Below are positions 13,168-47,304 of a stretch of DNA of 47,590 nucleotides, piece after piece. Source of the DNA: Syntrophomonadaceae bacterium. Lineage in GTDB: Bacteria > Bacillota > DSM-12270 > Thermacetogeniales > Thermacetogeniaceae. The position numbers were made by a program, and so were the translations under genes. The stretch lies in assembly GCA_012516535.1 (NCBI GenBank), contig JAAYWP010000045.1, positions 1 through 47,590 on the forward strand. Reading direction: 5' to 3'. Numbering within the stretch: the first letter of the stretch is position 1; the number at the start of each line of letters is the position of its first letter. The notes below the pieces were generated by a model. That model did no database searches. It was not told the DNA's origin and worked only from the letters and a program-made list of their open reading frames with translations.

Positions 13168-14598
13168 TTATAACCTGGCTAGAAGCAACTTATTGACTAT
13201 TTGTGGGTTGGCTTTTCCCCGGGTCTTTTTCATTACCTGTCCCACAAAAAATCCCAATGCCTTTTTCTTGCCCTTACGGTAATCCTCAACAACCTCAGGA
13301 TGAGCAGCAATTATCTCATCAATGATGGCGGCAAGTTGATCCTCATCACTGATCTGCAAAAGCCCTTTCTCCTCAACGATCTGGGCTGCTCTTTTCCCGC
13401 TGACGAACATCTCTTCAAAAACGGTTTTTGCAATTTTACCGCTGATTGTCCCCTTATCCATCATGTTCAACATCTCTATCAGGTGAGATGGAGTTAATTT
13501 CGATTCCTTAATATCCAAACTGTTGGTGTTGAGCAGGCGAAGCAGTTCCACCATCACCCAGTTGCTGACCTTTTTGGGGTCATGGTAACCCCTAACACAT
13601 TCTTCGTAATAATCGGCCAGCTCCTTTGAACTGGTAAGGACCCCAGCATCATAAGCAGGAAGCCCGTATTCTTCTATAAAACGCTGCTTGCGGGCTGCAG
13701 GCAGTTCAGGCAGCCCTTCCCTGATCTCATCGATCATCTCATCATTCAATACAACAGGCACCAGGTCCGGATCTGGGAAATATCTGTAATCTGAGGCTGT
13801 TTCCTTGGCCCTCATGACCGATGTTTTTCCAGTGTTCTCATCCCAGGCGCGAGTTTCCTGAACCACTTCGCCCCCTGTCTCATAGAGTTTCTGCTGTCTG
13901 CTTATCTCACTTTCCAGGGCATGCTGTACAGCCTTAAAAGAATTCATGTTCTTGATCTCCACTTTGGTATTTAAAACACTGCTGCCAGCAGGACGAAGTG
14001 AAATATTGGCATCACAGCGCAAAGACCCCTCTTCCATTTTGCAGTCAGATACATCCAGATACTGAAGAATCTGTTTCAGGTTTTCTAAAAAAAGCCGCGC
14101 CTCCTCTGGTGTTCTAATATCTGGTTCAGTTACGATCTCTAAGAGGGGTACACCACCGCGGTTTAAGTCCACCAGAGAGTAATCAGCTTTCCCCTCACCG
14201 TGCAGCAGTTTACCTGCGTCCTCCTCCATATGGATTCTATTAATGCCAATTCTCCGCACCTCTCCGTCAACTTCTATATCGAGATAGCCATTGCGGCACA
14301 AAGGGAAGTCATTCTGGGAGATCTGATAGGCCTTAGGGAGATCAGGATAAAAGTAGTTCTTCCGGTCAAACTTGCAGTAATGGGCAATCTCACAGTTCAT
14401 AGCCAATCCTGCCTTGATCCCGTACTCTAACAGAGATTTATTCAGCACCGGAAGTGTGCCTGGCATGGAAAGACAGATTGGACAAACATTTGAGTTTGGT
14501 TCACTACCAAATTCATTGGGGCAGGAACAAAATGCCTTGGTCTTGGTGCGCAGTTCCACATGGACCTCCAGCCCGATCACAGCTTCATACTTAGTCAT
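13168..14598 (-). CDS. gatB: Asp/Glu-tRNA amidotransferase subunit B
   Basis: A 476-aa GatB, the kinase/transamidase subunit that activates Glu or Asp on mischarged tRNA-Gln or tRNA-Asn. The signature LEVHVEL is followed by a zinc site with Cys24, Cys26, Cys39 and Cys42 ([13 protein letters not shown]). The C-terminal third is the helical tRNA-binding tail. The ORF track start at 14730 lies far inside gatA; the ATG at 14598 ([12 protein letters not shown]) has GGAAGTG upstream, overlaps the gatA stop by 8 bp and gives the normal length. It is last in gatC-gatA-gatB. Confidence 0.97.
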
Positions 14599-16108
14599 CG
14601 ATATCACTTCCCTTTGCTTTTTCTTCTGATGCTCTTCTCTTGATGGGAGGACGCTCTCTGTGATATGGAGTATTCTGTTCAAAGGCATAAGCAACCTGAA
14701 AAAGACTATCCTCGCGAAAAGCAGGGGCAATAATCTGCATCCCTACAGGCAATCCATCCACAAAACCACAGGGTATAGATATGGCAGGGAGGCCAGCTAT
14801 ATTTACCGGTACTGTATACTTATCAGAATCATAACTGTCAAGAGGATTCACCTTCTCCCCTAACAAGAAGGGCAGGTCCGGTGTTGTGGGAGTTATAAGC
14901 ACATCAAACCGCTCATAAGCCTGTTCAAATTCCTTTTTGATCAATGTTCTTACCTTAGCAGCTTTTATATAATACTTTTCATAACTGCCAGAGCTGAGAA
15001 CATAAGTCCCCATCATGATTCGTCTCTTAACTTCTGGCCCAAAACCCTTACCCCGAGTTTTCATATACATCTCTTCCAAAGTGTATTTTTCCCCTTTCTC
15101 CGGTACAGCCCGGTAACCAAAGCGGACACCATCAAAGCGCGCCAGATTGGAACTGGCCTCAGCAGGTGCAATAATGTGATATACCGGAACAGATGATGCT
15201 GCTGCTACCGGCAGAGAACACTCATCAACAACAGCGCCTAACCCCTCCAGCTTGTTAACAGCCTTTTTGAATACTTCAGCAACCCTGGGGTTCAGACCGT
15301 CATCTATCATTTCCCTGACGACCCCGATCCTCTTTCCCTTGACCTCGCCGGTTAAAAAGGTGGTGTAATCGGGAACATTCCTCTTAACAGAAGTGGAATC
15401 CAATGGGTCATAGCCGGCGATGGCGTTCATCACCAATGCACAATCTCGCACATCCTTTGTCAGCGGACCCACCTGATCCATTGATGAGGCAAAGGCAACA
15501 ACTCCACTACGGGACACCAAACCATAGGTGGGCTTCATCCCCACAATGCCGCAAAAGGCTGCAGGCTGTCTGATCGAACCCCCAGTATCTGAGCCAAGGG
15601 CGAAAACAGCTTCACCTGCCGCTACAGCAGCTGCAGACCCACCGCTGGAACCTCCGGGAACCCGGTCAATGTCCCAAGGGTTACGTGTAGGAAAGAAATA
15701 GGAGGATTCAGTGGATGAACCCATGGCAAATTCATCCATATTCAGCTTACCAAGGAGAACAGCGCTGTTTTCCAACAGCCTGTCAACAACAGTAGCACTG
15801 TAAGGAGGGATAAAATTCTCCAGCATGCGGGATGAGCAGGTAGTGCGAACCCCCCTGGTACAAATGTTATCCTTTAGTGCCATTGGGATTCCTGCTAGAG
15901 GAGGCAGAGCATCCCCTTTGTTCCTGCGCTCATGGACATTCTTAGCAGCATGAAGAGCATTTTCCTCAGTAATAGTAACATAGGCGCGGATATCGCCATC
16001 GATCTGGTGAATCCGCTTTAAGACCGCACTGGTGATCTCTATATCAGTTACCTCTTTTTTTTCCAGCAAATCACTCAATTCGTGAGCAGTGAGATCAAAA
16101 ATCTCCAT
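14591..16108 (-). CDS. gatA: Asp/Glu-tRNA amidotransferase subunit A (glutaminase)
   Basis: A 505-aa amidase-signature enzyme that releases ammonia from glutamine and channels it to GatB. The catalytic triad Lys79 (ALKDN), cis-Ser154 (PGGSSGGS) and Ser178 ([10 protein letters not shown]) is complete, at the same numbering as known GatA proteins. This is notable because three other glutamine amidotransferase functions in the window appear lost. It lies between gatC and gatB with an 8-bp overlap to gatB. Confidence 0.97.
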
Positions 16109-21081: not shown

Positions 21082-21744
21082 CTACCGCCGCCGCTCTGCT
21101 AGCTTTTCTTTGATCTGTTGGGGGCTGACACCGCACTCCACCAGCAGCACCAAAAGGTGATAGACCAGATCAGCTGTTTCTTCTATCAGTTCACCCTGCT
21201 TATCCTCCATTGCAGCAACAACAGTTTCCACAGCCTCTTCTCCTACCTTTTGCGCGATCCTGCCCCTACCCTTTTGAAACAACTTTGCTGTATAGGAACC
21301 CTCAGGTAAGGTCTTGCGTCGCTCCTTGATCAGGGCATACAATTCATCAATAATGTCAGCTGAACTCTGCTCTTCAGCAGTAACGCTCCCTGCCAACCGG
21401 GAAAAACAGGACCTGGTCCCCTGATGGCAGGCTACACCCAATTGCTTTACCTTAATAAGCAGTGTATCACCATCACAATCCAGAAACACTTCTTTGATGT
21501 ACTGATGGTTGCCGCTGGTCTCTCCCTTCAGCCAAAGAGCCTGTCTGCTCCTGCTGTAAAACCAGGTCAGCCCGCTTTCCAGTGACCTTCGAAGTGACTC
21601 CCTGTTCATCCAGGCTACCATCAGAACCTCATCATTCTCTGCATCCTGGATGACAGCCGGTACCAAACCGGCCTGATCAAACTTAACCTTAGCCAATATA
21701 CTATCTATCTCTTTACTGTCAGTTAAAACCGGTTCTGCTCTCAC
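21082..21744 (-). CDS. hisIE: Bifunctional phosphoribosyl-AMP cyclohydrolase / phosphoribosyl-ATP pyrophosphatase
   Basis: A 220-aa fusion catalysing the second and third steps of histidine synthesis. The HisI half has [26 protein letters not shown] and the zinc-binding CHQGTRSCF. The HisE half has [16 protein letters not shown] and [13 protein letters not shown]. The order HisI then HisE is the usual fusion. It overlaps hisF by 4 bp and its stop is immediately followed by the pcrA start region. Confidence 0.97.
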
Positions 21745-22499
21745 AGCCTTACTGAAACTCCCCTCTCTGCCAAATATTCTTTTGCCTGTCTGATGGTGTA
21801 TTCCCTGTAGTGAAAAATGGATGCAGCCAATGCTCCATCAGCTTTCCCTGTTGTAACAGCCTGGTAGATATGCTCCAGCCTTCCGGCACCACCGGAGGCT
21901 ATAACCGGAATCTGCACAGCCTCGCTGACAGCTCTGGTAAGCTCTAGGTCATAACCGTCTTTGGTGCCATCACTATCAAAACTGGTCAAAAGGATCTCCC
22001 CGGCCCCCCGTTTTTCCATCTCCTGAGCCCAGATGACAGCATCCACTCCGGCGCTTTCAGCACCTCCACGGATAAGAGTCTCCCATTTTCCCGCTGCAGT
22101 CCGGCGGGCATCAATTGCAACCACAATGCGCCCTTTCCCAAACTCCCTGGCAGCATCTGTAACTAATCCAGGATTTTTTACTGCAGCGGTTCCCAGAGAC
22201 ACCTTATCAGCCCCGGCTTTCAATAAAGTGCTGATATCATCAAGAGTTCTGATCCCTCCACCAACTGTAAAGGGGAGGGAAATGTTATCTGCCAGCTGTT
22301 TAACCAAATGGACCATGGTTTTTCGGCCTTCAATCGTTGCGGTAATATCAAGAAAAACCAGCTCATCAGCTCCTTGTGCCTCATACTCCACAGCCATAGC
22401 CACAGGGTCACCGGCATCCCTTAAATCCCCGAATTTTATCCCTTTGACAACCCTCCCCCCCTTGACATCCAAACAGGGGATGATCCGTTTGACGCCCAT
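21741..22499 (-). CDS. hisF: Imidazole glycerol phosphate synthase cyclase subunit
   Basis: A 252-aa TIM barrel that closes the imidazole ring using ammonia. Catalytic Asp11 (IPCLDVKGG) and the Asp in VVAIDARR are present. The residues that form the ammonia gate in the Thermotoga enzyme (Arg5, Glu46, Lys99 and Glu167 equivalents) seem conserved: KR near the start, [22 protein letters not shown]. Its normal ammonia-supplying partner HisH is not encoded at the expected site. hisF is separated from hisA by 506 bp filled by a foldback repeat. Confidence 0.97.
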
Positions 22500-22567
22500 T
22501 TTTACTCCTCCTATAATCTATCTAAAATACAGACCGATCACCGAGATGGTTATGTTGCACAGCCTTA

Positions 22568-22634
22568 TATATTCCTACCGCATAGCTTTGTATATTCCTG
22601 CCTGCGCAGCGGTATATCCCTGCTGGCGCAGCGG
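22568..22634. repeat. Tandem 22-23 bp repeat, three units
   Basis: Units start at 22568, 22591 and 22613 with the core TATATTCCTGCC/TATATCCCTGCT followed by GCGCAGCGG. The unit resembles the foldback terminus TTTATCCCTGC, so the array looks like an amplified element end. Confidence 0.7.
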
Positions 22635-22902
22635 ACTGTGAAGGTTGTTACTTGCCCTTAACGAAGGAGCAGTTAACGACAGCCGAAGCAAACTCCAAAG
22701 GAAGCAGTCCCCAACTAGGCAGAACGATTACTTAATAGGAATTTCTAGATAAGAGCTGGTAATGACACCCGATTCAAATTTCAAATTCTGGCATCAGACC
22801 TACGGCATCCGACTTCTAAAATAGATGGCGTCATAGGAGCCGGTCAGCTGTCGTCTGCAGATATTATATGGGCAAGTTCAACCTGAACTTAAGCCGCAAG
22901 CA

Positions 22903-22965
22903 GCAGGATATACCGGACTGCAGGGATAAACAGAACGGCAGGATATACCGGACAGCAGGGATAAA
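22903..22965. repeat. Tandem 35-bp repeat, two units
   Basis: GCAGGATATACCGGA followed by GCAGGGATAAA occurs at 22903 and again 35 bp later at 22938, with a 1-bp deletion in the second unit. Each unit ends with the foldback terminus GCAGGGATAAA. Confidence 0.75.
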
Positions 22966-23005
22966 GCTAACAACAGCAATAAACCGAACAATCAGTGGAA
23001 CAGCT

Positions 23006-23737
23006 CTAAGAGCCAACAGCATCTAAAGCCTCTTGGAGAGTGAATTTACCCTCATAGAGCGCTTTCCCGATGATGACCCCTTCTACCCCTAGGGATTCCA
23101 GAGGCCGCAGTCTTCTCAGATCCTCCAGTGTTCCTACCCCACCTGAAGCGATCACATACATCCCGGTTTTTTCCGCCAATTCGGCTGTTGCCTGTATATT
23201 AGGCCCAGTCAGCATTCCATCCTTGCTGGTATCGGTAAACACAAGCCGTCTGCAGCCTAGGTCCCGCATCTGGCAGGCAACATCTAAAAAATGCCTTGAG
23301 GAGATGTCCTGCCATCCCTTGACTGCCACAAAACCATCCCTGGCATCGATCCCCACGATCACCCGTTCCCAGCCAAAAGTTGCACAAGCTTCCTTCACCA
23401 GATCCGGATTGGTGATCGCCACGGTCCCCAGGATCACCCTTTGCACACCGGCAGCAAAGGCTTCCTCGATCTGTTCCAGTGTCCTGATGCCCCCTCCCAA
23501 TTGAACCGGGAGCCCAGCCCTTTTGATGATCTCCCTGACCACAGGCAGCTGCCGCGGCTCACCGGCAAAGGCGCCATCAAGATCTACCAAATGCAGCCAC
23601 TGGGCTCCTGCATTTTTCCAAGAAAGAGCGGTTTTGACCGGGTCCTCATCATAAACAGTCTCTGCATCTGCACGCCCCTGTAGTAAACGGACACATTTGC
23701 CTCTTCTTAGATCAATCGCTGGAAAAATCAGCATCAT
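23006..23737 (-). CDS. hisA: Phosphoribosylformimino-AICAR ribotide isomerase
   Basis: A HisA TIM barrel of about 243 aa, catalysing the Amadori isomerisation ProFAR to PRFAR. It has IFPAIDLRRGKCVRL with the catalytic Asp, HLVDLDGAFAG and QLGGGIRTLEQI, plus VFTDTSKDGMLTGPN with the second catalytic Asp. The ORF track start at 23767 is too long; the ATG at 23737 has CAGGGGG 5 nt upstream. hisB lies upstream across a 226-bp repeat-rich gap where hisH would normally be. Confidence 0.96.
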   Translation of the reverse strand: MMLIFPAIDLRRGKCVRLLQGRADAETVYDEDPVKTALSWKNAGAQWLHLVDLDGAFAGEPRQLPVVREIIKRAGLPVQLGGGIRTLEQIEEAFAAGVQRVILGTVAITNPDLVKEACATFGWERVIVGIDARDGFVAVKGWQDISSRHFLDVACQMRDLGCRRLVFTDTSKDGMLTGPNIQATAELAEKTGMYVIASGGVGTLEDLRRLRPLESLGVEGVIIGKALYEGKFTLQEALDAVGS

Positions 23738-23806
23738 TCTAACCCCCTGAGATACTGCACAAAACATCTACGAACTCCAATCCCCATTAGGTCCGCATCC
23801 ACCCAA

Positions 23807-23830
23807 CGACTAACCACCAACCACCAATGA
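23807..23830 (-). repeat. GTTGGTGGTTAGTC-type repeat
   Basis: CGACTAACCACCAACCACCA (plus strand) lies 70 bp upstream of hisA. It belongs to the same family as the copies at 23917-23963, 36031-36058, 44479-44504 and 45657-45688. Confidence 0.7.
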
Positions 23831-23839
23831 CGCGCCCTC

Positions 23840-23908
23840 CGTCCCCCCTTGTCAAAAAGACCGTCCTTATGCTTTCATTTGTGACAGTAACCCCGTCCCC
23901 TTGTCACA
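23840..23908. repeat. GGGGACGG-type repeat pair
   Basis: On the minus strand TGACAAGGGGACGGGG and TTGACAAGGGGGGACGGAGG flank a GGACGG core. The motif family recurs at 36119-36135 and as a tandem pair at 44990-45033. Such GGGGACGG repeats are common in intergenic DNA of Clostridia. Here they fill the hisB-hisA gap. Confidence 0.6.
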
Positions 23909-23916
23909 CCCCAATC

Positions 23917-23963
23917 AACTAACCACCAGCCACCAACTACTGACGACTAACCACCAACCACCA
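23917..23963 (-). repeat. Heptad-type repeat abutting the hisB stop
   Basis: Read on the minus strand, TGGTGGTTGGTGGTTAGTCG and further GTTGGTGGCTGG units begin directly after the hisB TAA. The same type of sequence directly follows the guaA stop and, on the plus strand, follows gerXC of operon 1. Confidence 0.7.
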
Positions 23964-24551
23964 TTAAAGCTTTCCTTTAGTGGATGGGATCCCTCTTTCC
24001 CGCTCACTGAAGGCAACTGCCTCCCGCAAGGCCCGGGCAAAGCCCTTGAAAAGCACCTCAATAATATGATGGGTGTTATCCCCGCTGAGCAGATGCATGT
24101 GCAGGGTGATCCCTGCATTATTTATTATAGCTCTGAAAAACTCAGGCACCAGTTCCACCGGCAGATCCCCTGCAGCCTGTCCCGGCACTTCTACTTCATA
24201 ACTCAAAAAGGGCCTGCCGCTGAGATCCAAGGCAACAAGCGCCAGGGCTTCATCCATAGGGATCAGAGCACTGCCATACCTATTGATCCCCTTTTTATCG
24301 CCCAGTGCTTTCTGTAGTGCCATCCCCAGACAGATACCGGTATCCTCCACAGTATGATGGGCATCTACATACAGATCTCCAACCGCCTCCACACCCAGAT
24401 CAATTAAGGCATGCCGTGCCAGTAGATGCAGCATATGATCTAGAAACCCAACCCCTGTTTTACCTTCAAAGACACCGCTCCCATCAAGGTTCAGTTTTAA
24501 CTTAACACTGGTTTCAGCTGTTACCCTTTCCACTTGCGCTTCCCGCATCAT
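23964..24551 (-). CDS. hisB: Imidazoleglycerol-phosphate dehydratase
   Basis: A 195-aa monofunctional HisB. The two manganese-binding histidine motifs are DAHHTVEDTG and DNTHHIIEVLFK, and FLDHMLHLLARH is also present. The end STKGKL is typical. It overlaps hisD by 4 bp. Next in transcription would usually come hisH and hisA; here a gap filled with repeats follows before hisA. There is no histidinol-phosphatase domain. Confidence 0.97.
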   Translation of the reverse strand: MMREAQVERVTAETSVKLKLNLDGSGVFEGKTGVGFLDHMLHLLARHALIDLGVEAVGDLYVDAHHTVEDTGICLGMALQKALGDKKGINRYGSALIPMDEALALVALDLSGRPFLSYEVEVPGQAAGDLPVELVPEFFRAIINNAGITLHMHLLSGDNTHHIIEVLFKGFARALREAVAFSERERGIPSTKGKL

Positions 24552-25831
24552 AACCCCTCCAACCTTTTGGAAACTGCCCGGGCATGGGCATCTAATCCCT
24601 CTTCCTCAGCCAACCTGACGATATGGGGACCCCATTTTTTCAGGGCATCTTTAGTTGTATAGATCACACTGGTGCGCTTCAAGAAATCCTCCACACTCAA
24701 CGGTGAAAAGAATCTTGCCGTCCCCCCTGTAGGCAGAACATGGTTTGGCCCTGCCAGATAATCTCCTACCGGCTCTGAGGCATAAGCACCGAGAAAAACC
24801 GCACCTGCGTTTTTGATCTGTCCAAGCAAGGAAAAGGGATCCTCCACATAAAGCTCCAGGTGTTCAGCTGCCAGTTCATTGGCCAAGTCTACAGCATCCT
24901 GTAAGTCGTCCACCACCACTGCTGCGCCGCAGTTGTCCAGTGCACTGGTTGCGATCTCTTTCCTGGGCAGTACTGCCAGCTGTTTCTCCACTTCCTCCTG
25001 CACCCTCTCCGCCAATACCCTGTCAGGTGTTACCAGTACAGCCGCAGCCCTGGTATCATGCTCTGCCTGGGACAGCAGGTCAGCAGCCACCAACTCCGGG
25101 TCCGCAGAGCTATCTGCCACAATCACGATCTCACTGGGCCCTGCCAGCATATCGATATCCACCAGTCCGAAAACCAACCTCTTGGCAACAGTGACATAGA
25201 TGTTTCCCGGCCCAACAATCTTATCCACCTTAGGGATCGATTCTGTCCCATAGGCCAGGGCAGCGATAGCCTGTACACCCCCAACCTTGAATATTTTCGT
25301 CACCCCTGCCTCAGCAGCAGCAACCAAAACAAGAGGGAGTATTGTACCATCACTTCTAGGTGGTGTCACCATAATGATCTCCTTTACCCCAGCCACCTTA
25401 GCAGGCAGGGCATTCATTAAAACAGAAGAGGGATAAGCAGCGGTACCGCCGGGAACATAGATACCGGCTCGATCCAGCGGCCGATACAACTGGCCAAGCA
25501 CCTCTCCGTTCTCACCGGGATGAAACCAGGACTGGAAGTGCTGCCTTTGGTGAAAATCCTCAATGCGGTCCCTGGCCAGGCGCAGAGATTCCAGCAGTTC
25601 AGGGGACACCTTTTGATATGCTTTCTCTATCTCTGCCTCTGTAACCTGTAATTGTTCAGCTGTAAGATCAGCATGATCAAATTTTTTTGTAGCAGCCAGG
25701 ACACCGGCATCCCCCTGCTCCCGAACCTGTTGGATAATCTCCCGTACTCCGGCCTCTAGCTCTTCACCCCGGTGCTCCCGGGCTCTCAGTTGAGAAACCA
25801 GTTCATCTTTATGAGATACCACCTTCAACAT
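24548..25831 (-). CDS. hisD: Histidinol dehydrogenase
   Basis: A 427-aa zinc enzyme oxidising histidinol to histidine with two NAD. It has GGTAAYPSSVLMNALPAKVA, VDKIVGPGNIYVT, DMLAGPSEI, SQAEHD with the zinc-ligand Gln and His, and GDYLAGPNHVLPT. It is followed by hisB with a 4-bp overlap, so no hisC lies between them as in many his operons. Confidence 0.97.
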   Translation of the reverse strand: MLKVVSHKDELVSQLRAREHRGEELEAGVREIIQQVREQGDAGVLAATKKFDHADLTAEQLQVTEAEIEKAYQKVSPELLESLRLARDRIEDFHQRQHFQSWFHPGENGEVLGQLYRPLDRAGIYVPGGTAAYPSSVLMNALPAKVAGVKEIIMVTPPRSDGTILPLVLVAAAEAGVTKIFKVGGVQAIAALAYGTESIPKVDKIVGPGNIYVTVAKRLVFGLVDIDMLAGPSEIVIVADSSADPELVAADLLSQAEHDTRAAAVLVTPDRVLAERVQEEVEKQLAVLPRKEIATSALDNCGAAVVVDDLQDAVDLANELAAEHLELYVEDPFSLLGQIKNAGAVFLGAYASEPVGDYLAGPNHVLPTGGTARFFSPLSVEDFLKRTSVIYTTKDALKKWGPHIVRLAEEEGLDAHARAVSKRLEGL

Positions 25832-25870: not shown

Positions 25871-26554
25871 CTAACCCTTCCCTGATGATGCAGGTAAATG
25901 CACTTTTTTGATGGCATCAATCAATGAAACCAATAGGTGATGCTTAACCCTGTAGGATACTCTGTTGGCAACCAACCTGGCGGTGGCCCCTGTGATCTGT
26001 TCTATTGCTACCAGCCTATTTTCCCGCAGTGTTCTGCCGGTTGAAACCAAATCGATGATCACCTCAGCTAACCCTACCAGAGGCGCCAGTTCAATATTAC
26101 CGGAAAGTTTGATAACCTCACCCGGCAGATTGCGGCTGCGCAGATAAGACTCCGCAACCTTTGGGAATTTTGTTGCCACCCGCAGCCGCCCAAAACGGGA
26201 CAGATAGGCGGATAGCCCACCCCGGTACAGCTCAAGTTTGGATGCCGGAACAGCTACCACAAATTTACACTCGCCAAACCCCAGATCCATCAGCTCACAG
26301 ATATCCTTACCCTGCTCAAGGATCACATCCTTCCCTGCAACACCCAGGTCAGCAGCACCATACTCCACAAAGGTGGGAACATCAGCAGCACGGCAGATAA
26401 GATAGCGTATCCCGCTCTCCGGATCACTATAAACCAGGCGGCGTCCGTCCCCCTCCAGATCAATTGCCATCAATCCGGCATCCTTTAAAACCTTCTCTAC
26501 AAGGGGTAGCAGACGACCCTTGGGCAGTGCGAAAGTTATCACTTCTTTATTCAT
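25871..26554 (-). CDS. hisG: ATP phosphoribosyltransferase, short form
   Basis: A 227-aa catalytic subunit for the first step of histidine synthesis, joining ATP and PRPP. It has TFALPKGRLLP at the N-terminus and IIDLVSTGRTLREN with the PRPP loop. It lacks the C-terminal histidine-binding domain of long HisG, so it needs HisZ, encoded 5 nt upstream. Feedback inhibition by histidine then acts through the HisGZ complex, as known for this family. Confidence 0.96.
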   Translation of the reverse strand: MNKEVITFALPKGRLLPLVEKVLKDAGLMAIDLEGDGRRLVYSDPESGIRYLICRAADVPTFVEYGAADLGVAGKDVILEQGKDICELMDLGFGECKFVVAVPASKLELYRGGLSAYLSRFGRLRVATKFPKVAESYLRSRNLPGEVIKLSGNIELAPLVGLAEVIIDLVSTGRTLRENRLVAIEQITGATARLVANRVSYRVKHHLLVSLIDAIKKVHLPASSGKG

Positions 26555-26559
26555 TTACC

Positions 26560-27750
26560 TCACTCCACTTTCTCATAGTTATCCATAACCAGTATGTGAG
26601 GTATCCCCTTCCGGGAGGCATAGGCTATAGCCTCCCGCCTAGGCCGTTCTGTGAGATCAACCTCTACAATAAAACCTTCCTGTCTCAATTCCCTTGCTTT
26701 TTTCACTACCTCACCCATATCAGAGCCAGTAATAAAATAATCAGGGGTTTGGTCATCACAGGAAAGGGATTGCTTATCCAGTGCATCCAGAATACGATCT
26801 ATGGTTAAGGCAAAACCAGTGGCTGGACAGGGGAAACCGAATTTAGCCAATAGCTCATCATACCTCCCCCCACCACAGACGGGGTAGCCCACCCCCTGGA
26901 CATAACACTCAAACACCAACCCTGTATAATAGCCCAATCCCCGCAAAAGAGTCAGATCGATGCACACCTGATCTCGAAAACCATAGTAAGACAGAACCTT
27001 CCACACATGGCGCAGGCTTTTTAACCCCTGCTGTGCAGCTTCATCCTTGATCAGTCCATCCATTTCCTGGAGTATCTCAATACCGCCGTGCAGATAGGGC
27101 AGTGAAGCAAGAGCCTTTTTATACTTCCCTGTTAGCTGTGAACCCTCTACCAGCTTATCCCAGGTTACAAGATCTTTCCTGCTCAAAGCCATCTTCGCCT
27201 GTTCCTGTTCCGCAGCTGAAAAACCAGCCCCTTTTAAGATACCGCTCAGCACATCAACATGTCCCACTGTAATGGTGAAATCGCCAACACCAGCCATTTT
27301 CATGGATTCTGCAGCCAAGCTGATCACTTCTGCATCAGCATCTGGCCCTGCAGCACCTATCAACTCTACACCTGCCTGATAAAACTCACGCTGACGCCCG
27401 GCATGGTTTTCCCTGCGAAAGATATTGGCTGTGTAACAAAAGCGAAGAGGGAGCTCCTGATCCCTCAGCCGGGCACTGACCAAGCGGGCAATGGGAGTAG
27501 TCATATCTGGCCTTAAAACAGTGATCTGCCCGTTTTCATCGATAAACCTGTAAAGTTGATTGTGCAGCATATCATCCAATGCAGGTGCCAGCACCTCATA
27601 ATATTCGAAGGTTGGAGTAACCACCTCCTGGTAGCCCCAGGACCTGATCAGCCTCAATAATTTATTTTCCAGTTTCCGCTTGCGGCGCGCCTCAGCAGGA
27701 AGGAGATCCCGCACCCCTCCCGGCATCAAAACTGTTCCTGAATTATCCAT
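26560..27750 (-). CDS. hisZ: ATP phosphoribosyltransferase regulatory subunit
   Basis: A 396-aa HisZ, a histidyl-tRNA-synthetase paralogue without the anticodon-binding domain. It has GVRDLLPAEARRKRKLENKL, the HisRS-like LRPDMTTPIARLV and an R-G-L-G-Y-Y-T-G motif, and gives histidine-sensitive regulation to short HisG. It is the first gene of the his operon. No T-box or strong promoter was recognised in the 85 bp before it. Confidence 0.95.
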   Translation of the reverse strand: MDNSGTVLMPGGVRDLLPAEARRKRKLENKLLRLIRSWGYQEVVTPTFEYYEVLAPALDDMLHNQLYRFIDENGQITVLRPDMTTPIARLVSARLRDQELPLRFCYTANIFRRENHAGRQREFYQAGVELIGAAGPDADAEVISLAAESMKMAGVGDFTITVGHVDVLSGILKGAGFSAAEQEQAKMALSRKDLVTWDKLVEGSQLTGKYKKALASLPYLHGGIEILQEMDGLIKDEAAQQGLKSLRHVWKVLSYYGFRDQVCIDLTLLRGLGYYTGLVFECYVQGVGYPVCGGGRYDELLAKFGFPCPATGFALTIDRILDALDKQSLSCDDQTPDYFITGSDMGEVVKKARELRQEGFIVEVDLTERPRREAIAYASRKGIPHILVMDNYEKVE

Positions 27751-34075: not shown

Positions 34076-34735
34076 TTACAACATATGATGCCCATTGATC
34101 ACCAAGCCAAAGCGGCAGTTAAGGAAATTGGCTGCTCGCCGGCATAAAAGCATCTTGGTCATAAAAATCTCAAAGTATTCCATAACAGAACAGATAGAGG
34201 TATCGATCTCCAGATGCATGATGATCTCCCGCTTATCTGGATCCACAGTGAGGTACGATTCCCTGGCAGCAAAGTTTACCCGGTCCCGGGTGGTGAAGGT
34301 GGCCTCATCTTCTTTACGCACCCTGCTGTAATGCACATTGGATTTATCCGCCAGAATAACTGCAGCTGCCACATTGCTCACTGCCACACCTGACCTCTCC
34401 TCATGGTTGCCGATGGCGGCGATCACAACAGCGATCTCCTCTGGAGGCATTCCCATACGCATCAACAGATGAAAGGCGATCAACGCACCGCTCCGCCCAT
34501 GTTCATACCTGTTGACCACATTACCAATATCATGCATATAGCCGGCGATAGCGGCAAGTTCAGCATCCCGCTCAGGGTAACCAAGCACCTTTAAAATACG
34601 GTAGCTGAGATTGGCTACATGGCGGGCATGTTCTTCATCATGGGTAATGGCCAGCATGGTAGACAGGTATTCATGAACCTTTTTCATGAGTACCTCTATT
34701 TCCGGGTTTTGCTGGATATCTTCAAGCTTGATCAC
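34076..34735 (-). CDS. HD-domain phosphohydrolase
   Basis: A 219-aa protein with a metal-dependent HD domain: His in EEHARHVANLS, the His-Asp pair in GYMHDIGNVVNRYEHG, His in GNHEERSG and Asp in ILADKSNVHYSR. Such proteins hydrolyse nucleotides or other phosphate esters, and the substrate cannot be read here. The GTG start overlaps the purD stop by 4 bp, so it is the last gene of the purine operon. That suggests, but does not prove, a nucleotide-related role. The C-terminal 30 residues, rich in Cys and hydrophobic residues, are not part of the HD fold. Confidence 0.82.
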   Translation of the reverse strand: MIKLEDIQQNPEIEVLMKKVHEYLSTMLAITHDEEHARHVANLSYRILKVLGYPERDAELAAIAGYMHDIGNVVNRYEHGRSGALIAFHLLMRMGMPPEEIAVVIAAIGNHEERSGVAVSNVAAAVILADKSNVHYSRVRKEDEATFTTRDRVNFAARESYLTVDPDKREIIMHLEIDTSICSVMEYFEIFMTKMLLCRRAANFLNCRFGLVINGHHML

Positions 34736-36009
34736 TTAACTACCCCCTTTTTTAGGGCGCGATGGGCAATATCCCTGCGGTAATGGATCCCCTCAAAATA
34801 AATTTTCTCCACTCCGGAATATACTCTCTTCACAGCCTCCTCAATAGTTGCGCCAAAGCCTGTAATGCCCAGCACCCTTCCCCCACTGGTTACCAGCTTC
34901 CCATCAGACAGAGCGGTACCAGCATGAAAAACCAAAATATCTGAAGGGAGTTCATCAAGACCGGTAATCACTTTACCCTTTTCATATGCTCCCGGATAGC
35001 CGCCTGAAGCTGCTACAACACAAACAGCAGCCCTGGGGTCCCACTCCAGTTCTACCTCATCTAAGCGCTCTTCGATAACAGCATTCATCACTTCCAACAG
35101 ATCTGATTTAAGACGGGGTACAACCACCTGTGTTTCGGGATCACCGAAACGGCAGTTGAACTCTAAGACATAGGGACCCTCACTGGTGACCATCAAACCA
35201 GCATAAATAACACCCTTATATTAAATACCATCATCAGCCAAGCCGTAGATAACCGGTTCCAGTATATCTTTCACAGCTTTCTCATGGAGATCACTGGTAT
35301 AAACAGGTGGTGGGGAATAGGCACCCATCCCTCCGGTATTTGGCCCCTCATCTCCGTCAAAAACTCGTTTATGGTCCTGGGATGCTGCCAGTGTTTTAAT
35401 AGTTTTGCCATCTGTAAATGCCAGGACACTAACTTCCTCTCCCTGGAGAAGCTGTTCCACAACAACTGCTTTACCAGCATCCCCAAAAGCCCTTTCTTCC
35501 ATGATCAAACGGACAGCCTGCTCTGCCTCTTCTCTATTTTTGGCTATAATCACACCTTTACCTGCTGCCAATCCGTCAGCTTTCACCACACATGGCCTGT
35601 TAAGTTCTCTTACAAACTCAAGGGCTGCAGCAGCATCATAGAAAACCCTATACGCAGCTGTAGGAACACCGTATCTGGTCATTTTCTCTTTGGCAAAAAC
35701 CTTACTTCCTTCTAAACGCGCTGCTTTTGCATCAGGCCCGAAAACCTTGAGACCCCGTGATTTAAAGAGGTCCACAATCCCTGCGGCAAGAGGGGCCTCC
35801 GGCCCTACTACAGTCAGATTAATCCTTTGCTCCTGGGCAAAATCAGCCAGTCCATGTAAATCCTCAGCTGCCAAGGGAACGCATTCCGCATCCCCGGCAA
35901 TACCCCCATTTCCAGGAGCACAGTAGATTTTATCCACATGGGAGCTTTGTTTCAGCTTCCAGACCAAAGTGTGTTCTCTTCCTCCCCCACCTACAACCAG
36001 AACCTTCAT
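34732..36009 (-). pseudogene. purD: Phosphoribosylamine-glycine ligase, interrupted by in-frame TAA
   Basis: PurD (GAR synthetase) joins phosphoribosylamine and glycine. The frame is open from the ATG at 36009 (MKVLVVGGGGREHTL; AGGAGG 6 nt upstream) through the ATP-grasp motifs (PCVVKADGLAAGKGV, GPNTGGMGAYSPPP) to a TAA at 35221-35223. It continues in the same frame as YKGVIYAGLMV, EFNCRFGDPETQ and the normal C-terminus. The stop replaces the residue before the conserved Y-K-G-V, so nothing else is missing. The ORF track shows two pieces, 35221-36060 and 34732-35196. A single-base nonsense change or sequencing error is likely because the enzyme is essential for purine synthesis. Confidence 0.9.
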
Positions 36010-36030
36010 CATATACCTCCTCATATTGTA

Positions 36031-36058
36031 GTTAGTCGTTAGTCGTTGGTCGTTAGTC
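36031..36058 (+). repeat. GTTAGTC heptad tandem array, four units
   Basis: GTTAGTC, GTTAGTC, GTTGGTC, GTTAGTC run without gaps just upstream of the purD ribosome-binding site. The ORF track extends purD into this array (MTNDQRLTTNYN), which shows that the upstream start is an artefact. Confidence 0.85.
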
Positions 36059-36118
36059 ATTTGTTTTGTTGGTATTTGCTCGGTAAATTCCTTCTCTATC
36101 TAACCGCTAACGACTACC

Positions 36119-39833: not shown

Positions 39834-41243
39834 TCACTTAACATTACTTGGTATCTGAATTGGATAATTTCCACAGAAACAAGCATCACAAAGTTCATCC
39901 GGTTGGAAGGGAGCTAAAGCGGCATGCAACCCAAGAAGACTTAGGTAATTAAGGCTATCAGCACCGATATGCCGGCGAATCTCCTCTAAACAGTGGCTGG
40001 CTGCGATCAGTTCCCCCCTGCTGGAGGTATCGATCCCATAATAGCAGCTATGGGTAATAGGTGGAGAACTGACCAAAAGGTGCACCTCCCTGGCACCTGC
40101 CTCCCGGATCATCTGCACAATTTTCCCTGATGTGGTCCCCCTGACAATAGAATCATCGATCATAATCACTCTTTTTCCAGAAACAATTTCCTTGATTGGG
40201 TTGAGCTTAAGCCGCACACCCAGTTCCCTGAAGGTCTGTGCCGGACGGATAAATGTACGCCCTATATACCTGTTCTTCATCAATCCTTCACTAAATGGAA
40301 GGCCCCGCTCAGCAGCATAGGACAGAGCTGAACTGACCCCCGAATCAGGCACTGGAATCACCATATCCCCCTCCAAGGGGTATTCCTTAGCCAACTGGCG
40401 CCCTAGGGCATAGCGCGCCTCTTGCACATTCAACCCATCGATCACACTGTCCGGTCTGGCAAAATAAACAAACTCAAAAGCACATAAAGCCTTTCGGTGA
40501 GCTTTATGGGGACGCAAAGATGTTATACCACGTTCATCAATGATCACAACTTCCCCAGGCTCAATATCTCTGATAAACCGCGCTCCTACAGTATCCAGTG
40601 CACAGGACTCAGATGCCAGCACATAACCATCTTGCAAACGACCTAAGCACAGAGGGCGCATCCCATAGGGATCTCGTATGCCGAACATCCTTTTTTCGGT
40701 CAGCATCACAAGAGAATAGGACCCCTCGATCTTCTCCATGGTCTGGAGAATACCGGATACCAGGTCCTTTGCCCCGGCACGTACGATCAAACTGACGATT
40801 AACTCACTGTCTGCTGTGCTCTGAAAAACCGCGCCGGCATCCTCAAGCTCTCTCCTCAGTTCAGCACTGTTGGTCAGCCTTCCATTATGGCCAATGGCGA
40901 TCATGCCATCCCTATAATAGAAATTCAGCGGTTCTGCATTCTCTATAATACTATCCCCAGCAGTGGTGTAGCGGACATGGCCTAGAGCGATGGATCCTTG
41001 CAGCTTTTCTAAGATATCCTCTGTGAAAACTTCCCCGACCAGGCCCATCCCTTTACGGCAGATGATCTTGTTACCATCACTGACAGCAATACCAGCGCTC
41101 TCCTGTCCGCGGTGCTGGAGTGCATAAAGCCCATAGTAAGTGATCCTAGCCACATCCTGCCCAGGTGCATAAATACCAAAAACACCACAAGCCTCATGGG
41201 GCTTATCACTATTTAAAAATAACTGGCAATACTCCCCCGCCAT
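39834..41243 (-). CDS. purF: Amidophosphoribosyltransferase (Fe-S type)
   Basis: A 469-aa PurF, the committed step of purine synthesis, moving glutamine nitrogen to PRPP. The catalytic N-terminal Cys is Cys19 ([10 protein letters not shown]), which implies removal of an 18-residue propeptide as in Bacillus. Likely [4Fe-4S] ligands are the Cys in [10 protein letters not shown], in HSCYYGID, and Cys452/Cys455 in ELCDACFCG. The PRPP loop is [14 protein letters not shown]. The glutaminase site is intact, unlike PurQ next door. The start overlaps the purL end by 31 bp, the only ATG available in frame. Confidence 0.96.
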
Positions 41244-43408
41244 ACCTTTTCCATCTCCTCAATATGCTGATTGATTAAAGCCCGCTCTGCTCTATCCCTG
41301 ATAATAAGGTGTCTCCCTCCTGTCTCCCCCAGCACTGCAGCAGTAACCCCTGCTTTCTCTGCTGTTTTCAAAACACTGTCCAGTTCGCGGGGAGTACATG
41401 TAACCAGTATACAGGATTGTACCTCACCAAAGAGCAGAGCATCTTCCCTCCCAGCAAAAGGCAGATTTATTGTTGCCCCTCTTTGGCCGGGAATACAGCA
41501 CTCAGCAATAGCTACAGCTAGACCGCCTTCAGCACAGTCATGGGCTGATTTTATTTTCCCTTCTCTGATCAGTTCACGACAGCAGAGCTGAACCTGTTTT
41601 TCTTCAGCTAAATCGATTTCGGGAACCTCTCCCTGTTCCAAACCATGGATCACAGCCAGATACTCGCTGGCACCTAACTGGGGGTGGAATTTACCCAACA
41701 GCACCACCAGATCACCCGAATCCTTAAAAGCACTTGTGGTACATCTTTTCACATCGGGAAGAAGTCCCACCATTCCTACAACAGGTGAAGGGTAAATAGC
41801 CTCTCCTTTTGTTTCATTATATAGGCTGACATTTCCACTGACAACAGGTATCTCCAAGCTGCGGCAGGCCTCACTCATCCCCTCCACCACCTGTTTGATC
41901 TGCCAGAAGATCTCGGGCTTTTCAGGATTGCCGAAGTTCAGTCCATCTGTAAGCGCCAAGGGCTCAGCCCCCACACAGGAAAGATTCCTTGCTGCCTCCG
42001 CAACAGCGATTGCTCCCCCACGGCTGGGATCAAGGTAGCAGTAGCGTGGGTTCCCATCAGTTGTCATAGCGATTCCTTTTTTCGTCCCTTTGATGCGCAA
42101 AACCGCAGCATCTGCACCAGGGCCTACTATCGTATTCAGCATCACCTGATGATCATATTGAATGTATACCCACTCTTTGCTGGCAATATTGGGGGATGAC
42201 AGAAGCTTCAGCAAAACACTGTTTAAGTCTTCTGGAACAGGGAGATCATCCGGCTTCCAGTTACGCAGTCTTTGATAATACTCCGGTTCTCTCTGCTCCG
42301 GATACCGGACCGGAGAGTCAGTAAGAGCTTTCACCGGTATTTCAGCAACTACAATTTCCCCATCAAGTACCCGGTAGATACCATCCTCGGTCACCCTGCC
42401 GACAACAGCTGCTTCAACACCCCATTTAGCAAATATATCCATCACCACTTGTCTGTGCTGGGGTTCGATCACTAAGAGCATCCTCTCCTGTGACTCAGAG
42501 AGCATTACCTCATAAGGGGTCATCCCTTCATCCCGCTGTGGCACCAAAGACACATCGATCTCTATACCAGTACCGGCCCTACCGGCCATCTCAGCACTGG
42601 AACTGGTGAGACCTGCTGCACCCATATCCTGAATGCCTACCACATAGCCCTTTTCCATCAATTCCAAGCAGGCCTCGATGAGAAGGCTTTCCAGAAATGG
42701 GTCACCTCTCTGTACATCAGGGGCCTCGGTCTCCTCACTAAACTCTTCAGAGGCGAAGGTGCAGCCGTGGATACCATCCCTACCTGTTTTTGCCCCGGCA
42801 GCCACTACTAAATTCCCAGGCCCTGCTGCCAGCCCCCGGACAATCCGTTTATGGTCTACCAAACCGACACACATGGCATTGACCAGGGGATTACCCTGAT
42901 AACTGGGATGGAAGAAAATGTCTCCCCCTACAACAGGAGTTCCCAGACGATTTCCATAACCACCGATTCCCTCCACAACCCCGGAAAAGAGGTGGCGCAC
43001 CCGGGGGTCCTCCAAACTACCGAAACGCAGGGAGTTCAAAGCAGCGATCGGACGCGCTCCCATGGTAAATATATCCCGCGCTACCCCTCCTACACCTGTG
43101 GCAGCACCTTCATAGGGTTCCACTGCTGATGGGTGGTTGTGGCTTTCAACTTTGAATACCAAAGCCTGCCCATCACCAATATCAACAACACCGGCATTTT
43201 CGCCGGGGCCTTGAATAACATATTTGCCCTCTGTGGGGAAATTCTTGAGCACAGGACGGGAATGCTTATAACTGCAGTGTTCGGACCAGAGCACTGCAAA
43301 AAGTCCGGTCTCCAGATAGTTAGGCTCTCTCCCGAGAATATCACAGATCTTTGCGTATTCTTCAGAACTAAGCCCCATCTCCATCCAGGCAGGTTTTTGT
43401 TCACTCAT
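41213..43408 (-). CDS. purL: Phosphoribosylformylglycinamidine synthase subunit II (small PurL)
   Basis: A 731-aa small-type PurL that makes FGAM from FGAR, ATP and ammonia. It has [11 protein letters not shown]-like [47 protein letters not shown] and [16 protein letters not shown]. It lacks the fused glutaminase domain of large PurL and normally gets ammonia from PurQ with PurS as bridge; both genes precede it. Small PurL proteins are known to accept free ammonium in vitro. That matters because PurQ here lacks its catalytic Cys. Confidence 0.97.
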
Positions 43409-44120
43409 CGGTCATTACTCCTTCCTGTGTGTGAATACCCCACCAATCCAAGACAGACAAAAACAACCGCAGCCCCTGGGTATTGCCTAAAATCTCTTCT
43501 GAACAGCGTTCCGGGTGAGGCATAAGGCCTAAAACATTCCCTTTAACATTACAAATCCCAGCAATATTCCGCACAGATCCATCAGGATTGGCTGCAGGTA
43601 TAACCTCTCCCTGCTCATTGCAGTAGCGGAAGACAACCTGCCCGTTTTGCTCCAACTGGGCAAGGCCTTCCGAATCTATATAGTAATTCCCCTCACCATG
43701 GGCTATTGGGTACTTGATAACCTCCCCCTGATGGTATCTGTTGGTAAAAGGTGTCCTGCTGTTCTCTACTCTGAGAAAAACATCATGGCAGCGAAAGCGA
43801 AGGCTTTCATTTTTACGCATCGCTCCAGGCAACAGCCCTGTATTTAAAAGAATCTGGAAACCATTGCCGATCCCCAGAACAAGTCCCCCCTGTTCTGCAA
43901 AATCTGCAATCTGTTCTATCACTGGGGTTGCTGCAGCCAGCGCCCCAGCTCTCAGGTAATCACCATATGAGAAACCACCGGGAAGAACTATACAGTCAAA
44001 TCCGTCCAGTTCCCGCTCCTCCGGCTGTATAGGACTGACAGGATGGCCGATCAACTGATCGATAACATAAAAACAGTCAGCAGCATTGGCACCGGGAAAG
44101 AACACCACTCCAAATTTCAT
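43401..44120 (-). CDS. purQ: Phosphoribosylformylglycinamidine synthase subunit I, glutaminase nucleophile missing
   Basis: A 239-aa class I (triad) glutamine amidotransferase with the normal PurQ frame: [28 protein letters not shown], and His and Glu of the triad in [12 protein letters not shown]. The nucleophile elbow, normally GICNGFQ, reads GIGNGFQ, so residue 85 is Gly (codon GGC at 43868-43866) instead of Cys (TGC). Glutamine hydrolysis should be lost, while the protein may still stabilise the PurL-PurS complex. It overlaps purS by 4 bp and purL by 8 bp. A single-base sequencing error is the main alternative. Confidence 0.93.
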
Positions 44121-44371
44121 CTGTCAACCTCCCGGAGTTCAAAACTATAATCCTCCAATACCATATTAACTAAAAATTTTTCACAGATCTGGCGCAGCTC
44201 TTCCTCTGCAGCTGTGCGGTCACGCTCCTTTATTTTAAGGAGAAAATACTTTCCTGTTGTTACCTCTTCCACCTGGTCATACCCCTGTGACTTAAGACTG
44301 TTCTTTATCGCTTTTCCCTCGGGATCGAGGATCCCCTTTTTCAATGTCACATAGACCGCTGCCTCAAACAT
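44117..44371 (-). CDS. purS: Phosphoribosylformylglycinamidine synthase subunit PurS
   Basis: An 84-aa PurS that bridges PurQ and small PurL. It has [38 protein letters not shown] and [18 protein letters not shown] lies upstream of the ATG. It is first of the purSQLFMNH series, 649 bp downstream of purE; that gap replaces the purK, purB and purC genes of the Bacillus order. Confidence 0.95.
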
Positions 44372-44989: not shown

Positions 44990-45033
44990 GAGTCAAAGTC
45001 ACCGTCCCCTTGAGTCAAAGTCACCGTCCCCCT
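44990..45033 (-). repeat. 22-bp tandem pair that supplies the 3' end of purE
   Basis: GAGTCAAAGTCACCGTCCCC occurs at 44990 and 45012 (22-bp units with one or two differences). On the minus strand the unit reads GGGGACGGTGACTTTGACTC. The purE stop TGA (45023-45021) and its last codons (ESGGR) come from this repeat, so insertion or slippage has set the end of the protein. Confidence 0.85.
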
Positions 45034-45521
45034 GACTCACTCAGTTTCTCCGCCTTTTTTGCTGTGCGCTCCGCAAGTTCCTTTTTATAAGCCCTGAACT
45101 TTTCCCTCAGTTCCGGCTCCTTGATGCTCAACATTTGAACCGCCAGAAGAGCAGCATTGCGCGCCCCATCAATAGCCACTGTAGCCACCGGAACACCCGG
45201 TGGCATCTGAACTATAGAATAGAGAGAATCCAGACCATTGAGGGCACCGCCTTTTAGAGGAACCCCGATCACAGGCAGACAGGTGTATGCTGCCAGAACT
45301 CCTGGCAGATGGGCAGCCATCCCCGTCCCGGCAATAATCACCTCAATACCTCGTTCCTCCGCGCTGCGGGCGTATTCAGCTGCCAGATCCGGGCTGCGGT
45401 GGGCAGAAGCAATGGTCATCTCATAGGAAACCCCAAAATCCTGCAAAATACGAGCTGCTTCCTCCATAACCGGGAGATCAGAATCACTCCCTAAAACGAT
45501 TCCTACTCTGTGTTTTTCCAC
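45021..45521 (-). CDS. purE: N5-carboxyaminoimidazole ribonucleotide mutase
   Basis: A 166-aa class I PurE converting N5-CAIR to CAIR. It has [46 protein letters not shown] and [15 protein letters not shown]. Class I PurE usually works with PurK, which is not in the window. The GTG start at 45521 has GGGAGTG upstream. The last residues are encoded by a GGGGACGG-type repeat. It is first of the pur genes in the window, with purS 649 bp downstream. Confidence 0.95.
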
Positions 45522-45689: not shown

Positions 45690-46658
45690 CTACTCCCACT
45701 CAATTGTTCCTGGCGGTTTTGATGTGATATCATAAAGCACCCTGTTGACACCCGGAACCTCACGGACAATACGGCTGGCTATCTGATCCAGGAGATCATG
45801 GGGCAGGTGTGCCCATTTTGCGGTCATGGCATCTTCACTATTGACAGCACGGATGACTATGGGGTGAGCATAAGTGCGTTCTCCATCAGAGACCCCCACA
45901 CTCCTGACCGGCAGCAAAACAGCAAAATACTGCCAGATCTCTCTACCCAAGCCAGCTTTTTGGATTTCCTCCCTTAAGATATAATCAGCTTCCCGCACCA
46001 TGGTGAGCTTTTCCTCTGTTACTTCACCCAGGACACGAACCGCCAGGCCAGGTCCAGGGAAGGGTTGGCGCCAAATAACATCTCTGGACAGACCCAATTC
46101 CTCACCGATGAGGCGCACCTGATCCTTGTACAACTCACGCAGAGGTTCCAGCAGCTTAAGTTTCATATCCTCAGGGAGGCCACCCACATTATGATGGCTC
46201 TTCACTACACCTGCTGCGTTTTTCCCCGATTCGATTACATCAGGGTAGATTGTACCCTGCAGAAGGAATTGAAAATCACCCAGCCGGGCGGCTTCCTCCT
46301 GAAACACATTGATAAATTCATTGCCTATAATCTTCCTTTTTCTTTCCGGGTCTGTTACACCCGCTAATTTATTCAGGAACCGCTCCTTGGCATCAACAGT
46401 GATGGTATTAACACCCACATGCCGGAGAATCTCTGTCACCTGTTCCCGCTCGCCTTTTCTCAACAGTCCGTGGTCAACAAAAATACAGGTTAACTGATCT
46501 CCAATTGCCCGCTGTACCAAAGCTGCAGCAACTGTGGAATCGACTCCTCCGCTCAGCCCTCCCACAACCCTGCTCTTACCGACGGTTTTTCTGATAGAAG
46601 AGAGCTGTTCTTCGATAAACTCAGCCGGTGTCCAATTCCTGCCCTTTTGTTTATTCAC
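45690..46658 (-). CDS. guaA: GMP synthetase, ATP pyrophosphatase part only (no glutaminase domain)
   Basis: A 322-aa protein matching only the C-terminal two-thirds of bacterial GuaA, which is about 510 aa. The P-loop [10 protein letters not shown] is at about 33-42. [20 protein letters not shown] and the dimerisation end [13 protein letters not shown] are intact. The N-terminal class I glutaminase domain is absent, and the start overlaps the hpt stop by 8 bp, so it cannot be just upstream. The start [20 protein letters not shown] corresponds to the linker that follows the glutaminase in fused bacterial enzymes, which suggests deletion from a fused ancestor. It should aminate XMP with free ammonia, or with a glutaminase subunit encoded elsewhere. 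Confidence 0.92.
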
Positions 46659-47214
46659 GAGCCAGTTCCTCCTTAGTTAGGCATTTATCCCCACACTCCT
46701 GATGAAGAATGTAGATATTGGGAAGATTGCGATAGCGCTGAGCACAGTCCAACCCATAACCCACAACAAAGTAATCGGGAATAGTAAAACCATTGTAATC
46801 AGGGGTAAAATCCACCTTGCGCCTACTGGGTTTGTCTAGAATGGTGCAAACCCTTAGGCTGGCAGGACCCCTGGCCTCAAGGGTTTTACAAAGGTATTTC
46901 AGTGTTAATCCAGTGTCGATGATATCCTCCACTAAAAGCACATGCTTGCCGGTGATTGTTTCATCCAGGTCTTTGAGGATTCTGACAACACCGGAGCTGA
47001 CAGTATCATCCCCATAACTGGATACTGCAACAAAATCTATGATCACCGGCATCTCTAAATTGCGCACCAAATCGGCCATAAAGACAAAAGCACCCCGTAG
47101 GATGCCTACCACCAGGAGTTCTTTTCCTTGATAATCCCGGTTGATCTGTTCGGCCAATTCCTTCACTTTTGACCGCAGTTGCTCTTCTGTAAAGAGTATT
47201 TCAAGTTTTTCCAA
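46651..47214 (-). CDS. hpt: Hypoxanthine(-guanine) phosphoribosyltransferase
   Basis: A salvage enzyme of about 187 aa converting hypoxanthine or guanine with PRPP to IMP or GMP. It has [32 protein letters not shown], the PRPP loop [14 protein letters not shown] and [19 protein letters not shown]. The ORF track start at 47229 is GTG-rich; TTG at 47214 lies 5 nt after GGGAG and is the better start, though the exact codon is uncertain. It overlaps guaA by 8 bp, giving a purine salvage and GMP unit. An extended -10 promoter lies upstream. Confidence 0.94.
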
Positions 47215-47304
47215 GCACACTCCCACCAATCTGTTATACCTAGTATTTCCTCATTAACAAAAAAGTTATTAAAGAAGCACCTATTTCAAAAAAAATCAAG
47301 TCAT

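Follow-up and report, generated by a model that had tools for sequence, protein, structure and literature searches.

Background

Glutamine amidotransferases are textbook examples of enzymes that work with tunnelled ammonia. In vertebrate CPS I, an ammonia-dependent carbamoyl-phosphate synthetase, the glutaminase is kept but is catalytically dead.

HisF, the partner of HisH in IGP synthase, takes ammonia without HisH in vitro (PMC11350729), and the restoration of a Klebsiella hisH mutant by high NH4+ revealed that it does so in vivo (PMC5919458). In Escherichia coli hisH is non-essential (PMC3423039). A C. glutamicum hisH deletion mutant is prototrophic (PMC3896937), so histidine can be made in vivo by HisF without HisH, as proposed below, although this is a laboratory deletion in a species that has a functional hisH. 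Likewise, GMP synthetase goes on accepting NH4Cl when its catalytic Cys has been mutated (PMC9312489).

Loss of hisH also occurs in nature. The ant endosymbiont Blochmanniella has hisH pseudogenes but retains hisF, with ammonia proposed as the donor. As described in the accessible part of that report (PMC12779916), this is a reduced endosymbiont in which hisH is the sole amidotransferase affected, whereas the losses described here are in free-living syntrophs, appear to be independent in several cases and extend to GuaA, CarA and PurQ. Syntrophaceticus schinkii has neither glutamine synthetase nor ammonium transporters according to the accessible part of its description, which makes no mention of glutaminases (PMC5113046). 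This species is very likely one of the genomes compared here (G015), which belongs to the family studied.

The his operon and the hisB-hisA spacer

The window (the whole stretch of DNA analysed, 47,590 nucleotides) is contig C145 of a 1.84-Mb MAG (G000), which is 82% complete. Its his operon, on the minus strand throughout, is intact apart from the missing hisH and consists of hisZ (26560-27750), a short form of hisG (25871-26554), hisD (24548-25831), hisB (23964-24551), hisA (23006-23737), hisF (21741-22499) and hisIE (21082-21744). It shares the order hisB-hisA-hisF with organisms that have a HisF-HisH IGP synthase. An earlier note on this DNA had described this gene order and a gap of 226 bp without hisH between hisB and hisA (23738-23963), and both coordinates and profile searches agree with it. 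The gap, which is the site of hisH in HisH-bearing relatives, measures 226 bp only if hisA starts at 23737, where the conserved start MLIFPAIDL is found; a longer hisA ORF begins at an in-frame ATG at 23767. No gene was found in the 506-bp spacer between hisA and hisF (22500-23005). The hisB-hisA spacer of the window contains no hisH remnant (tblastn gave only noise, E > 2), and none was detectable in the spacers of six genomes, that of G017 being partly unread.

The heptad and second repeat reported from the gap are real. TTGGTGG occurs in 18 copies in the window (6.1 expected) and GGGGACGG in seven (about 0.5 expected), with tandem heptads in the hisB-hisA spacer at 23815 and 23952. Both repeats are also present elsewhere among the spacers of the window, with most copies on the minus strand. 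They are not site-specific, and the idea that they form an element replacing hisH was rejected.

The absence of hisC between hisD and hisB, which overlap by 4 bp (24548-24551), had been listed as a further peculiarity. Both the absence and the overlap are real, but the absence is trivial, as hisC lies outside the operon (G000:C93:5154-6218, 367 bits in the genome search) and his operons without hisC are found family-wide; it was rejected as a second anomaly.

Absence of HisH from the genus and its relatives

The genome-wide search that the earlier note had proposed located hisC but, using TIGR01855, no HisH in the window genome, while 14 of 14 control genomes were positive. HisH was also absent from three congeners (hence from 4 of 4 genomes of the genus) and from 3 of 4 genomes of the sister genus g7, these three being 94 to 97% complete. 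By contrast, it is present in genera g2, g4, g5, g6 and g8, and wherever operons were drawn out (g2, g4, g5 and g8) hisH lies between hisB and hisA, with ten relatives having this canonical site. Because the absence spans the whole genus and three nearly complete genomes of g7, a single incomplete assembly does not explain the missing HisH. Six genomes of the family that are without HisH contain HisF; G002 and G005 have no HisF above the family cut-off. The order- and class-level surveys comprise the same 20 genomes as the family survey, and frequency counts cover those.

Weak HisH matches in G024:C165 and G016:C125 were rejected, both being PdxT. In G016, the fourth genome of g7, hisH is missing from the his operon, but a hisH-hisF2 pair is found within a purine operon, flanked by purF and purA (L248:14269-15716, G016:C120).

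Changes in HisF

The window HisF is a clear family member (TIGR00735, 360.6 bits against a cut-off of 294.55). The alignment comprised 70 HisF proteins whose genome or operon includes HisH and 15 HisH-less ones. All 70 of the former have F at position 74, Q at 123 and C at 124. Among the HisH-less proteins F74 is lost in 13 of 15, and Q123 and C124 in 9 of 15 each. All seven proteins of the window clade have S74 and none retains Q123, and the window HisF carries F74S, Q123G and C124R. Thus, with no HisH subunit and all three residues changed, it differs on both counts from the HisF of the HisF-HisH class. Position 74 is presumably on the HisH-facing side, given its place before barrel strand 3. 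For position 123 there is structural precedent, as Q123 of Thermotoga HisF recognises glutamine bound to HisH (PMC9052757). Single-column tree tests on such residues comprise four independent pairs and have low power. The window clade has G or S in place of N103, which is conserved in 69 of 70 HisH-bearing HisFs. In the G016 genome bin the F74-Q123-C124 signature is present in HisF2 but missing from the HisF of the his operon.

The catalytic residues D11 and D130 are retained in all HisFs compared, that of the window included. The ammonia-gate residues R5, E46 and K99 are retained in 15 of 15 HisH-less HisFs, and E167 is also retained in the alignment, bearing out the earlier observation that the gate is kept, a feature held in common with the HisF-HisH enzyme. 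The suggestion drawn from it, that HisH might exist elsewhere, did not hold up: neither the four genomes of the genus nor three of those in the sister genus have HisH, and HisF is eroded on the side that faces HisH. With its HisH-side residues eroded and its catalytic residues kept, HisF appears to carry the mark of HisH loss. In the tree, the HisFs of the window clade form a single clade (support 100/99), to which that of the HisH-bearing G019 is sister.

In two separately assembled genomes, G015 (L179) and G018 (L178), hisA and hisF are fused in frame with almost no linker, giving 501 and 498 codons, respectively. The accessible part of a review of his gene fusions has no mention of a whole-gene HisA-HisF fusion, and such an arrangement may hinder docking of HisH.

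These features bear on the alternative that hisH is merely missing from an incomplete assembly, or has moved, and that HisF still works in a normal IGP synthase. The window genome is indeed an incomplete MAG, and one further genome (L138/G027) looks like such a case, with the FQC signature kept and CarA intact. However, in seven genomes the operon is unbroken and its spacer short, three HisH-less genomes are 94 to 97% complete, the HisF residues facing HisH are changed and HisA is fused to HisF in two genomes, which makes this alternative very unlikely indeed. L138/G027 and L157/G026, the latter also with the FQC signature and with an intact GuaA, were for these reasons set aside as doubtful HisH losses.

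Other amidotransferases

Several other enzymes of amide transfer are encoded in the window, all on the minus strand. The gene guaA (45690-46658), which overlaps by 8 bp with hpt directly upstream (46651-47229), encodes a protein of 322 aa with only the ATP-pyrophosphatase and dimerisation domains, over the full length of which it matches TIGR00884 (492.8 bits). Its start falls in the linker that leads into the ATP-pyrophosphatase domain (profile position 192 of 512), and so it is without the N-terminal class I glutaminase domain. The protein aligns end to end with the synthetase subunit of the archaeal two-subunit GMP synthetase (PDB 2dpl; 6jp9 subunit B), but, unlike the archaeal system, no separate glutaminase subunit was found: the genome search detected no separate class I glutaminase able to serve the truncated GuaA. 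In purQ (43401-44120) the catalytic Cys is replaced by Gly (LGIGNGFQ instead of LGICNGFQ), while HPE is kept. As purS (44123-44371) is retained, its product can still form a complex with PurQ and PurL, the synthetase subunit of FGAM synthase (41213-43408). The same region contains purE (45021-45521), assigned from the similarity of its neighbours and gene order. Glutaminase function is not lost from the class II amidotransferase PurF (39834-41243), whose N-terminal Cys is intact, and the amide-transfer enzyme GatA, an amidase (14591-16108), has its Lys and Ser motifs as judged by direct reading of the sequence. Despite a missing and a dead glutaminase, respectively, window guaA and purQ pass the NCBIfam equivalog cut-offs for glutamine-dependent enzymes.

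Glutaminase status was compared in relatives. GuaA is without its glutaminase domain in G000, G006, G007, G008, G015 and G017, being full-length in other genera; its catalytic Cys is replaced by Gly in G018, G002, G022 and G023, and the glutaminase is shortened by deletion or degenerate in G021, G025 and G028. PurQ has lost the catalytic Cys in ten genomes, to Gly in G000, G002, G006-G008, G015, G017 and G018 and to Ser or Ala in G022 and G023. The window genome (82% complete) yielded no CarA; in its congeners (G006, G007 and G008) Cys is replaced by Ala and HPE by YPV or YPL, and CarA is also dead in G002, G021, G024, G025 and G028. As in vertebrate CPS I, a dead glutaminase is retained, although here it is bacterial CarA with independent substitutions (Ala, Ser and Gly). 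Syntrophomonas zehnderi (G042; L352 and L347) has two CarA proteins, one intact and one with Cys replaced by Gly and HPE by DPE, and in G021, G024 and G028 no CarA other than the dead type was detected. The intact and dead copies occur side by side in S. zehnderi, which marks the dead type of the Syntrophomonas group as an older paralogue. PurF, PyrG, PabA and PdxT retain their catalytic residues where found; therefore, glutamine is not abandoned altogether.

It could be argued that another glutaminase, for example PabA, or some other amide donor serves HisF in trans, as PabA is intact in the genus and HisF retains its gate residues. However, HisF has lost both the residue that touches the glutamine of HisH and the otherwise invariant F74, PabA sits in a pabA-pabB-pabC cluster, and a single partner for HisF leaves the glutaminase losses of GuaA, PurQ and CarA unaccounted for. 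Service in trans is accordingly rated very unlikely. In the window genome itself pabA (G000:C58:16708-17303) is split by a frame change, the congeners' copy being intact.

Every gene tested is under purifying selection, with dN/dS of 0.07 to 0.23 for hisA, hisB, hisD, hisF, guaA, purQ and carA. This is relevant to the view that the organism is an auxotroph whose his and pur pathways are in decay, with the losses being pseudogene erosion, which could accommodate several losses at once, the HisF-less G002 and G005 and the split purD of the window. Erosion would not be expected to spare the remaining his genes, which are intact (dN/dS 0.07 to 0.21 for hisA, hisB, hisD and hisF), the truncated guaA (dN/dS about 0.09) or D11 and D130 of HisF, nor to hit glutaminase functions while sparing synthase functions, and we regard it as the least probable of the alternatives. 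The split purD (34732-36060) consists of frames 35221-36060 and 34732-35196 and reflects a frameshift, an assembly error or a pseudogene.

Recurrence of the losses

A scan of HisF in public genomes, most of those compared being MAGs, revealed more hisH-less operons in Syntrophomonas, Hydrogenispora, Peptococcaceae and unclassified Clostridia MAGs, with no HisH above cut-off in these genomes. When mapped on a tree built from the remaining His proteins, HisH absence corresponds to seven changes, at least six of them forced by well-supported branches; the count of seven takes in the doubtful L157 (G026), and L101 and L129 are on long branches. GuaA is intact in 18 of 18 HisH-bearing genomes. Among six independent genome pairs, each with HisH in one member and not in the other, loss of the glutaminase of GuaA, CarA or PurQ goes in the same direction in about 5.6 and never in the opposite one (p 0.03 to 0.06). 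G024 and G026 are HisH-less with an intact GuaA. Syntrophic anaerobes have lost HisH on several occasions, and glutaminase function in GuaA, CarA or PurQ has nearly always gone with it.

Ammonia as the probable amide donor

The lost genes and domains, the substituted catalytic residues, the purifying selection and the repeated co-occurrence are very probably explained by a wider change of which hisH loss is part: HisF would aminate PRFAR with free ammonia and no HisH, while GMP synthetase (GuaA), FGAM synthase (PurLSQ) and carbamoyl-phosphate synthetase, likewise without glutaminase function, would take NH3/NH4+ directly. The pattern of losses suggests pathways fed directly by ammonia. That HisF can act without HisH, which the earlier note stated for the enzyme in vitro, is well supported by the published precedents, both in vitro and in living cells. 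We infer that ammonia serves as the in vivo donor here, and likewise the selective cause of the switch.

The likely cause would be life in ammonium-rich digesters at the thermodynamic limit, with glutamine costing one ATP per amide nitrogen. With no glutamine supply, or with plentiful ammonium, a glutaminase would be useless, and each amide nitrogen drawn from ammonium would save the ATP of glutamine synthetase. S. schinkii strain Sp3 came from a reactor with 6.4 g/l NH4+ (PMC4642661). G019 would fit Thermacetogenium phaeum, and on the strength of this and the S. schinkii assignment of G015 the window family would be syntrophic acetate oxidisers of high-ammonia digesters, living close to the energetic limit. 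The absence of glutamine synthetase is published for S. schinkii, and a link to other glutaminase-less genomes would extend from there.

Conclusions

HisF ammonia use, hisH pseudogenes in an ant endosymbiont and the lack of glutamine synthetase in S. schinkii are already known. The literature searched held no description of coordinated and repeated glutaminase loss over IGP synthase, GMP synthetase, FGAM synthase and carbamoyl-phosphate synthetase, and this pattern appears to be unreported. It may have been overlooked since family models call truncated GuaA and dead PurQ glutamine-hydrolysing above their cut-offs; so labelled, these enzymes may lead models of biogas communities to carry the wrong nitrogen and ATP cost. 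Taken as a whole, it is likely that the amide-nitrogen donor of several biosynthetic enzymes has switched from glutamine to free ammonia, repeatedly in syntrophs of ammonia-rich digesters, in connection with loss of glutamine synthetase and saving of ATP, and that annotation as glutamine-hydrolysing masks this.

A free-living lineage, with several independent parallels, has given up the glutaminase half of four amidotransferases. A simpler, ammonia-fed histidine pathway has been proposed for early life (Lazcano and Miller, as cited in the accessible part of PMC5919458), and the window lineage would be a natural case of it. The pattern connects ammonium-rich habitat and energy limitation with enzyme architecture in a way that can be tested.
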